NCBI GenBank assembly: GCA_017531845.1
Contig: JAFXKI010000003.1
Coordinates: 200,354-264,353 of the forward strand
DNA from: Opitutales bacterium
GTDB taxonomy: Bacteria > Verrucomicrobiota > Verrucomicrobiia > Opitutales > UBA953
DNA length: 64,000 bases
Direction: 5' to 3'
Below, in pieces: positions 8,527 through 56,782 of the stretch. The translations under genes were made by a program, and so were the position numbers. Under the pieces are notes generated by a model. It was not told the DNA's origin. It made no database searches and worked only from the letters and a program-made list of their open reading frames with translations. Numbering within the stretch: the first letter of the stretch is position 1; each line of letters opens with the position of its first letter.

Positions 8527-8545
8527 CGTTCCCGTAGCGGGAACG
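8527..8545. repeat. Octamer palindrome in the galE leader
   Basis: CGTTCCCG and CGGGAACG face each other across a 3-base spacer (TAG), giving a perfect 8-bp hairpin or a 19-bp dyad. It sits 37 bases upstream of the galE start. Confidence 0.75.
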
Positions 8546-9631: not shown

Positions 9632-9678
9632 AGCGTTCCCGCAAAATCGGCTTTTGCCGCGCGGGAACGCTTTTTTTT
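9632..9678 (+). terminator. Rho-independent terminator of galE built from two octamers
   Basis: AGCGTTCCCGC pairs perfectly with GCGGGAACGCT (11 bp) and eight T residues follow on the plus strand. A small inner hairpin (CGGCTTTTGCCG) sits in the loop. The stem consists of the iterated octamer in both orientations. Confidence 0.85.
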
Positions 9679-22186: not shown

Positions 22187-23938
22187 TTATTTCGAGGCTT
22201 CAGGCTGTTTTAGCGGCGGCTGAAGTTGCACCTTGTCGTCGTTGCGACGCGGCGTTCCCGGTTTCATATATTCTTCGGGAACGTTGTATTTCTTTTGCAA
22301 TTCTTTGAGTTTTTTCTTCAGCATTGCCGTAATTTCTTCCGTTCCCGGCTGTCCGTAAATATTGTTCATTTCGCTCGGATCGGCGTTCAGGTTAAACAGT
22401 TCCCATTTGTCTTCCTTATAGAAGTGAATAAGCTTCCAATCCTGCGAACCGTCCGGCGAACGGTAGCTGACACCGCAATGACGGCGCACGCTGTGCTCTG
22501 CCGGATATTCGTAGTAGCAGTAATAGAGCGAATCACGCCATTCTTTGACCGGTTTGTCGGACGCGAGCAGTTCTTTGAAGGATTCGCCCTGCATTTCTTC
22601 GGGAACCTTGATTCCGCACATATCGAGAAAAGTCGGCGCAAAGTCGATATTTTGCGTGAGCTGATTGATTTTGTTGCCCTTCAAGATTCCCGGACCGCTC
22701 ATCATCATCGGCATACGGAAAGATTCTTCATACATGAAACGTTTGTCGAACCATCCGTGCTCACCGAGATAAAATCCTTGGTCCGAGGTGTAACACACGA
22801 TGGTGTTTTCATCGAGCCCGCTTTTTTTCAGGTAATCCAAAAGTTCTCCTACGCCGTCGTCCACGCCGCGAATTGTCGCAAGGTAATCCTGCATATAGCG
22901 TTGATACGCCCAGCTCTGGAATTTTTGAAGTTTATCTTTATTTGCGGCAAGCCAAGCTTCGTCGTGGCGATGCTTTCGCCATTCGTTCCATTCGGCTTCC
23001 GAGCAGATTTTTGCATCGAAAAATGCATCGTTTTTCGCCGTGTAGGCTTTGATGTAAGCCTGATATTGTTTGTCCGACATGCGCGGCGGGAGCATCCAGC
23101 GCGGAAGAGAGCGCTGATCCTTTGAGGGGAAAAGCTTTAGGTCCGCCGCCCAGCGCATTGTCCACAGCAACGACATATCCTGCTCTTTTGCGGCGAAACG
23201 TCCTTCGTAATTATCGAAGAAATTTTCCGGTTCCGGGAACGTAACGTTATCGTAAAGATTGTAATATTTTTCTTTCGGAATCCAATTACGGTGCGGAGCT
23301 TTATAATGCACCATGAAGAAGAACGGCTTGGATTTGTCCCGCGTGTTTTCAAGCCAGTTGATGGCACCGTGGGTAACGATATCGGTGGAATAACCTTTGG
23401 CGATGATATGCCCTTTCGGTCCTTTGAAGCGCCCGTTAATGTCGCCGCAAAGCAAATCCGGATTAATGTAGTGCCCCTGTCCGATGAAAACCTGCCACCA
23501 GTCAAAGCCGGTCGGATCGCTGGGCAAATGAATTTTCCCTATAATCCCCGTCTGATATCCGTTGGCGTGAAAAACTTTGGCGACGTTGTTTTGACGATTG
23601 TCAAAAGTGCCCCATTCGTTGCTCATGTAGCCGTTCGCGTGAGAATGTTTCCCGGTGAGAACGCAGGCACGGGAAGGACCGGAAATGGAATTTGCACAAT
23701 AATTGCGCATGAGTAGCGCCCCGTTATTCGCAATGCGGTCGATATTTGGCGTCGGTGCCAATTTTCCGATGGGATGCCCGTAAGCGGAAATCGCCTGAAC
23801 CGCATGGTCATCGCTCATGATATAAATCACGTTAAGCGGTTTTTTAGTTTTCTGCGGTTCAGCCTGTGCAACGGCAACGACGCCGAAAGAAGCCACGGCA
23901 AGCGCGGCGCAGTAAGAGAAACTGGAGCTTTTTTTCAT
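22187..23938 (-). CDS. Secreted sulfatase, Ser-type (GlcNAc-6-sulfatase-like)
   Basis: Hydrolyses sulfate esters, probably on glycans such as mucin or glycosaminoglycans, outside the cytoplasm. The signal peptide (AALAVASFGVVAVAQA) is followed by the metal site NVIYIMSDDHAVQAISAYG and the formylglycine motif S86-G-P-S-R (SISGPSRACVLTGKHS). Serine at this position means maturation by the radical-SAM activator (anSME) rather than the oxygen-dependent FGE. GHPIGK, GKIHLPSD and GEHGWFDKRFMYEESFRMP fit the S1 family near GlcNAc-6-sulfatases. It is 583 residues long. Together with the GH20 enzyme at 59 kb it suggests use of sulfated amino-sugar glycans. Confidence 0.92.
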   Translation of the reverse strand: MKKSSSFSYCAALAVASFGVVAVAQAEPQKTKKPLNVIYIMSDDHAVQAISAYGHPIGKLAPTPNIDRIANNGALLMRNYCANSISGPSRACVLTGKHSHANGYMSNEWGTFDNRQNNVAKVFHANGYQTGIIGKIHLPSDPTGFDWWQVFIGQGHYINPDLLCGDINGRFKGPKGHIIAKGYSTDIVTHGAINWLENTRDKSKPFFFMVHYKAPHRNWIPKEKYYNLYDNVTFPEPENFFDNYEGRFAAKEQDMSLLWTMRWAADLKLFPSKDQRSLPRWMLPPRMSDKQYQAYIKAYTAKNDAFFDAKICSEAEWNEWRKHRHDEAWLAANKDKLQKFQSWAYQRYMQDYLATIRGVDDGVGELLDYLKKSGLDENTIVCYTSDQGFYLGEHGWFDKRFMYEESFRMPMMMSGPGILKGNKINQLTQNIDFAPTFLDMCGIKVPEEMQGESFKELLASDKPVKEWRDSLYYCYYEYPAEHSVRRHCGVSYRSPDGSQDWKLIHFYKEDKWELFNLNADPSEMNNIYGQPGTEEITAMLKKKLKELQKKYNVPEEYMKPGTPRRNDDKVQLQPPLKQPEASK

Positions 23939-23997
23939 ACGCTTCCGATTATGAAAAAGCTTTTTTTTTCTGTCAACGTTCCCTTAACAAATAAAAA

Positions 23998-24066
23998 GCC
24001 CCGGCGAGAAGAAAGGAGGAAACTCGCCGGGGCAACCCGTAAGGGAAAGGAGGAGAACCTTACGGG
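23998..24066 (-). terminator. Twin hairpins after tRNA-Cys with anti-Shine-Dalgarno-like loops
   Basis: Two perfect hairpins stand side by side: an 11-bp stem (GCCCCGGCGAG/CTCGCCGGGGC) and a 9-bp stem (CCCGTAAGG/CCTTACGGG). On the minus strand the 11-bp hairpin is followed by TTTTT and would end the tRNA-Cys transcript. Both loops on that strand contain CCTCCTTTC, the sequence normally found at the 3' end of 16S rRNA; on the plus strand both show GAAAGGAGG. Confidence 0.7.
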
Positions 24067-24088
24067 CATTATTGGATTGGGAAGAAAT

Positions 24089-24163
24089 TGGAGGCGTGGG
24101 TCGGAATCGAACCGACTCATAGAGATTTTGCAGACCTCGGCCTTCCCATTTGGCTACCACGCC
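24089..24163 (-). tRNA. tRNA-Cys (GCA anticodon)
   Basis: The cloverleaf folds with acceptor GGCGTGG/CCACGCC, a D arm closed by GCC/GGC, an anticodon stem GAGGT/ATCTC around CTGCAAA (anticodon GCA), variable TATGA, and T arm GTCGG/CCGAC. The discriminator is U and CCA is encoded, as expected for bacterial tRNA-Cys. It is the only tRNA seen in the window and stands alone. Confidence 0.95.
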
Positions 24164-24306
24164 TAAAAAAGAACAATGTGAGGAGTAACGATACCTTTTT
24201 CTCGCCCGTTGGCAAGCCCGTTTTTGACAAAAAGTTATTCCCAATTATCTTTGAGGCTTGCAGAAAGCGCGTGAAAATAAGAATCTTGCGCCAATCGTAT
24301 TTTTTA

Positions 24307-56692: not shown

Positions 56693-56782
56693 GCGCGGGA
56701 ACGTCAGGAGGTGCTGTCGTTCCCGCGCTGCTTCATTTGCGTTTCCGGCTCCGTTTGAACTATTAGAAATTTTCGAATAGTT
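56693..56782. terminator. Octamer hairpin and second hairpin downstream of hsdM
   Basis: GCGCGGGAACG (56693-56703) pairs perfectly with CGTTCCCGCGC (56718-56728). Next to the hsdM stop, AACTATTAGAAA pairs with TTTCGAATAGTT with one mismatch (56758-56782). Both lie between hsdM and hsdS and could reduce read-through into hsdS. Confidence 0.5.

Follow-up and report, generated by a model that had tools for sequence, protein, structure and literature searches.

The window analysed here, a 64-kb stretch from a gut member of the Verrucomicrobiota, carries on its minus strand a tRNA-Cys gene with GCA anticodon and encoded CCA end (24089..24163), found by ARAGORN and by Rfam (RF00005, 57.7 bits), which would head the transcript proposed below. 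At gathering score, Rfam reported the tRNA alone for the whole window. Two strong hairpins with unrelated stems follow on the 3' side, each exposing CCUCCUUUC in its loop, as the first-pass annotation had described. The tRNA is separated from them by a single-stranded stretch of 22 nt (24067..24088, minus strand), which contains UUCUUCCCAAUCCAAU as a third C/U-rich site. Hairpin 1 (24036..24066, minus strand) has a 9-bp stem (CCCGUAAGG/CCUUACGGG) and a 13-nt loop (UUCUCCUCCUUUC), with the anti-Shine-Dalgarno (anti-SD) motif at 24045-24053. Hairpin 2 (23998..24033, minus strand) has an 11-bp stem (GCCCCGGCGAG/CUCGCCGGGGC) and a 14-nt loop (UUUCCUCCUUUCUU), with the motif at 24011-24019. Because five U residues (23993..23997) follow directly on its 3' side, hairpin 2 reads as an intrinsic terminator; it is missing from the list of a consensus scanner that takes only loops of up to 8 nt. 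The hairpins are placed between the 3' end of the tRNA and the terminator of the transcript, the position of a tRNA 3' trailer.

The two loops hold the only copies of CCTCCTTTC in the 64 kb, both on the minus strand and 34 bases apart from start to start. The count of this 9-mer is by itself weak evidence, since 0.63 copies are expected and two or more were reached in 12 of 100 shuffles. The argument rests instead on their conservation and on the fact that the two copies sit in neighbouring loops. The two-hairpin stretch folds with a predicted energy of -41.4 kcal/mol (z -6.0), a value equalled by none of 200 shuffles, and both folding and conservation place the motif unpaired at more than one site of the same RNA.

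Upstream of the tRNA, a consensus scan found a candidate promoter (TTGCCA-16-TATCGT, 9/12; 24188..24215, minus strand), which is weak, as the scan returned four promoters against 3.7 expected from shuffles. It listed no promoter-like site on the minus strand between the tRNA and the terminator. The next gene, an ORF that we take to encode a sulfatase-like protein (22187..23938, minus strand), has its own promoter-like site (TTGACA-17-CATAAT, 11/12; 23948..23976, minus strand) between the terminator and its ATG. The hairpins therefore probably end the tRNA transcript, and control of the sulfatase-like ORF in cis is unlikely. Judged by eye, a similar TTGACA...ATAAT precedes the ATG in two related genomes (G003 and G005). 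The ATG lies 9 bases past a good -10 element (23938-23976), as if the mRNA were leaderless, and the arrangement is similar in these two relatives. As a separate observation, when the tRNA and the single-stranded stretch are folded together (24067-24163), the D-loop sequence UGGGAAGG is predicted to pair with CUUCCCA of the trailer, and the cloverleaf is not formed. One D-loop letter of this pairing differs in two relatives (G001 and G007); it is possibly a maturation switch, or else due to chance.

The genus of the host, a Candidatus Spyradosoma-like member of the Opitutales, is represented by eight genomes. A 401-base query matched 42 of 57 genomes, mostly through the tRNA alone, and 30 loci were retained. 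The 3' side of tRNA-Cys was read at all 30, eight of which belong to the genus, that of the window among them, and 22 to other genera. Both hairpins with CCUCCUU loops are present in five of the eight congeneric genomes (G000, G002, G003, G005 and G006), and their loops read CCUCCUUUC, except for hairpin 1 of G006, which reads CCUCCUUCC. The terminator loop contains CCUCCUUU in seven of the eight, even if the letters of the stem have been replaced. This is the case in G001 and G007, whose stems differ (7 of 11 and 5 of 11 letters per terminator arm, respectively, are kept relative to the window's species), while the terminator loops keep UUCCUCCUUUUC and UCUCUCCUCCUUUG, with CCUCCUUU whole in both. 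Hairpin 1 of these two genomes has a short loop without the motif. In six of the seven trailers, the single-stranded stretch contains CCCAAUCCAA; G007 reads CUCCUCCCAAC at this place. In G004, the 3' side of tRNA-Cys was read and the element is absent from it.

In G002, G005 and G006, at least one hairpin has one or two changed letters per arm of its stem, and no loop has more than one letter changed, apart from an inserted U in loop 2 of G002. The 60 bases 3' of the terminator are 42-82% identical in G002, G003, G005 and G006, against 44% in a control obtained by shuffling the 100-base leader. The turnover of the terminator stem was followed in an alignment of eight terminators with six distinct rows (seven tRNA-Cys sites and a second site in G003). 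All 66 of 66 cells are paired, and both sides have changed in 9 of the 11 pairs. The covariation score is 0.885 against 0.296 in shuffles, with none of 500 as high, a result that is favoured because the structure was derived from the aligned sequences themselves. As the loops stay while the stem arms change, the loop is held and the stem is free to vary as long as it is paired. Judged from the sequences, it is thus the loop, rather than the stem, that is the kept part. The pattern is the reverse of loops varying over kept stems, and it supports the earlier proposal that selection acts on the loop.

A 16S rRNA gene was found in one of the eight genomes of the genus, and its tail reads GGAUCACCUCCUUUCUAUGG. 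Ten bases of loop 2 (CCUCCUUUCU) and nine of loop 1 match this tail, so that the identity of the loops with the 16S tail, which the first-pass annotation had assumed from the usual sequence, holds for the genus. It appears surprising that SD sites themselves are rare. AAGGAGG-N3-10-ATG occurs 10 times in this genome against 16 times for the reversed pattern, AAAGGAGG-N4-9-ATG occurs 31 times in the eight genomes against 51 times for its reverse, and in the window an SD match of at least 6 precedes the first ATG in 1 of 56 ORFs. By these counts, the host hardly uses SD sites. A general decoy of the ribosome tail, as first suggested for the loops, is therefore unlikely, and the RNA more probably regulates a minority of mRNAs.

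Beyond the genus, CCTCC was not found in the loop of any strong hairpin close to the tRNA when the 22 tRNA-Cys loci of other genera were scanned. A covariance model (R1) was searched over 79 genomes of the family and gave matches at E <= 0.1 in 19 of them. Below 1e-8 there are eight sites, all in the genus and all among the model's own training rows, namely the seven tRNA-Cys sites and a site in G003 (G003:C3:209668). The latter follows a tRNA-Gly-like gene and has another stem and the loop UUUUCCUCCUUUCUC. The gene itself is an odd one of 85 nt (L079, 1614-1698, minus strand), followed by this second CCUCCUUUC-loop terminator. The new match outside the training rows lies in G004, 3' of tRNA-Gln (E 9.6e-6), with a loop (CAUUUUUUCUCCUUUGGU) that carries the motif only in part (CUCCUUU). 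Matches outside the genus (E 3.6e-4 to 0.04) were rejected: those listed are GC-rich terminators or apparently coding stretches, and CCUCCUUU is not in a trailer-type hairpin loop in any of them. One such locus (L153) holds CCUCCUUUUUU, apparently in coding sequence. Two broader formulations were also discarded. The motif is not a genome-wide loop motif, as GAAAGGAGGA occurs five times in the genome, equal to the reversed control, with the three other copies outside strong hairpins. Nor does the genus show an excess of terminators with a CCTCCTT loop, every genome giving fewer matches for them than for the reversed control.

An unrelated feature of the window is an iterated oligomer. The 8-mer CGGGAACG occurs 190 times in the 64 kb (3 per kb), and the 9-mer GCGGGAACG 106 times against 1.96 expected. 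Copies of the 8-mer lie within genes as well as between them, on either strand and sometimes as inverted pairs (e.g. 8537-8545, 9634-9669 and 56695-56726). In the stretches examined, some congeners have it at a similar density (1.6-5.9 per kb) and G001 and G007 at a low one, while other genera have almost none (0.03 per kb). We take it to be a HIP1-like or DNA-uptake-sequence-like element.

The findings at tRNA-Cys are best explained by a small RNA, released from the tRNA trailer, that would mask a few SD-bearing initiation regions, and we give this reading a probability of about one half. The hairpins could also be a plain double terminator of the tRNA gene, with a pyrimidine loop that favours termination or trimming and an incidental match to 16S rRNA. 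Terminator-like hairpins indeed lie 3' of many of the 30 tRNA genes examined (of 41 in the genome), and the tRNA-Gln terminator of G004 has a U/C loop. However, the motif occurs in the trailer of tRNA-Cys and is missing from the 29 others, 8-9 nt stay exactly the same as the stems turn over, and hairpin 1 lacks a U-run. This explanation is therefore unlikely.

In Bacteroidetes, the 16S tail is bound by protein, and since SD pairing is hardly used, the same may apply to this host. The loops could then mimic the tail for a CCUCCUUU-binding ribosomal protein, nuclease or maturation factor, which would be titrated or recruited in step with tRNA output. The presence of 9-10 nt of the 16S tail in the loops, in a host with little use of SD pairing, fits this proposal, but GAUCA, which lies upstream in the 16S tail and is part of the Era site, is missing from the loops, and we consider it rather improbable. 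Alternatively, the trailer could be a sponge like 3'ETS-leuZ of E. coli, with loops that trap purine-rich sRNAs instead of mRNAs. Pairing of a tRNA trailer with an sRNA is documented, and the layout of site and terminator is alike, as far as described for that RNA (PMC6191717). A search for exact complements gave no known sRNA with GGAGG here, and the sponge is hence a doubtful candidate. The plus-strand loops read GAAAGGAGGA, in favour of the first-pass idea that the opposite strand displays GGA loops for CsrA/RsmA. This idea can nevertheless practically be dismissed, as the loops are longer than the usual hexaloops and lack a terminator or gene context, the conserved U-run is on the tRNA strand, and no CsrA was found in the genome (95% complete), whereas 3 of 14 control genomes were positive.

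Like the trailer, other RNAs are known that expose C/U-rich loops. LhrC of Listeria has its own promoter and belongs to a Firmicute host that uses SD sites, and RepG of Helicobacter pylori has a C/U-rich terminator loop directed at a G-repeat that is not an SD site, and does not come from a tRNA trailer. The architecture seen here is that of RNAs with repeated anti-SD loops, such as alpha-r14/NfeR1 and LhrC, while sequence, phylum and tRNA-trailer origin differ. In the parts of the source consulted, the alpha-r14 or 'cuckoo' sRNAs, such as Sinorhizobium NfeR1, are described as having several hairpins with an identical anti-SD motif, CCUCCUCCC, unpaired in each, with greatly differing stems, redundant seeds and independence from Hfq (PMC10746234). 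The trailer has CCUCCUUUC in two hairpins instead of CCUCCUCCC in three, belongs to a tRNA-Cys transcript and comes from an SD-poor member of the Verrucomicrobiota; the difference in motif does not affect the claim that it may work alike, and the likeness would be one of function, not homology. The motif described for LhrC1-5 of Listeria monocytogenes (UCCC/CUCCC) is also unlike that of the trailer (PMC4132741), and the target described for RepG is a G-rich mRNA leader (PMC8295292). In the accounts of NfeR1 and LhrC, such RNAs act as repressors that base-pair with the SD region of their targets (PMC10746234; PMC4132741). For the origin, the closest parallel is 3'ETS-leuZ, which comes from the 3' spacer of the glyW-cysT-leuZ tRNA transcript and ends at a Rho-independent terminator, just as the trailer is the 3' part of a tRNA transcript that ends at a terminator; however, it pairs with the sRNA RyhB in an Hfq context, and the portion of the account consulted describes no anti-SD loops (PMC6191717). 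Hfq was found in none of the eight genomes of the genus, against 5 of 14 controls in the same search.

For the trailer sRNA, the following course of events is proposed. As no promoter or earlier terminator is listed between the tRNA and hairpin 2, transcription from the tRNA promoter would continue into a conserved trailer, about 95 nt long, and stop at hairpin 2. Once the 3' end of the tRNA is trimmed, the trailer would be freed as a small RNA, by analogy with 3'ETS-leuZ (PMC6191717). The freed RNA, if stable, would present anti-SD sites in two hairpin loops, next to the C/U-rich single-stranded stretch. By pairing with GGAGG-type initiation regions, the loops could keep ribosomes from binding, much as NfeR1 or LhrC do. 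Since SD sites are scarce in the host, the effect would be limited to a small group of mRNAs and would not extend to translation at large.

Candidate targets are prophage genes, some polysaccharide genes and vor/kor-like oxidoreductase genes. Several SD hits fall into prophage-like stretches, e.g. in G000:C5 and G001:C1. Such runs of genes with SD sites stand out in the SD-poor host (L166, 10300-17300, in G000:C5; L201 and L202 in G001:C1). In G000:C5, two of six proteins have weak matches to head proteins (PHROG E 2e-5 and 1e-4) and a third matches mainly PHROG families of unknown function; G001:C1 was assigned to phage by eye. In small samples from chosen stretches, an SD of at least 5 stands at the first ATG in 10 of 19 ORFs of prophages, compared with 5 of 73 of the host (Fisher P 2e-5), a contrast to be read as a lead and not as a measured rate, because part of the stretches were chosen by SD hits. 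The prophage stretches had been fetched for containing one (L202 as the neighbour of one), as had the host stretches L168 and L169, which hold all five host positives. In these chosen stretches, predicted pairing with the loops averages -8.5 kcal/mol for prophage ORFs and -5.1 kcal/mol for host ORFs. SD sites are not confined to phage genes: the 30 loci read also include what we take to be oxidoreductase subunits and polysaccharide genes, and one SD match (G005) is the trailer's own complement. A search by exact complement (GAAAGGAGGA) identified no target conserved across species; the copies that recur between species are mainly antisense to coding genes, which is the wrong strand for pairing. 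These genes presumably encode fumarase and release factor 2.

Both RNAs with anti-SD loops and RNAs from tRNA trailers have been described before, but we know of no case in which the two are combined in an SD-poor host. Among open-licence PMC papers, there was no report of an anti-SD sRNA from Verrucomicrobiota or of a small RNA with CCUCC hairpin loops of anti-SD type. The setting, with host mRNAs nearly devoid of SD sites, prophages that use them and an anti-SD sequence displayed twice, might even hint at a translational discriminator between self and foreign. An abundant tRNA-derived RNA would then selectively mask SD sites, so that genes of phages and recent acquisitions are silenced in a manner coupled to tRNA supply, though this wider role is distinctly improbable. 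If the reading as a trailer sRNA is correct, a tRNA-trailer RNA would carry the mRNA-binding sequence of the ribosome in conserved loops, in a lineage that hardly uses this pairing. It would make testable what role the anti-SD sequence has in SD-poor bacteria, and whether SD sites may serve there as marks of foreign genes.
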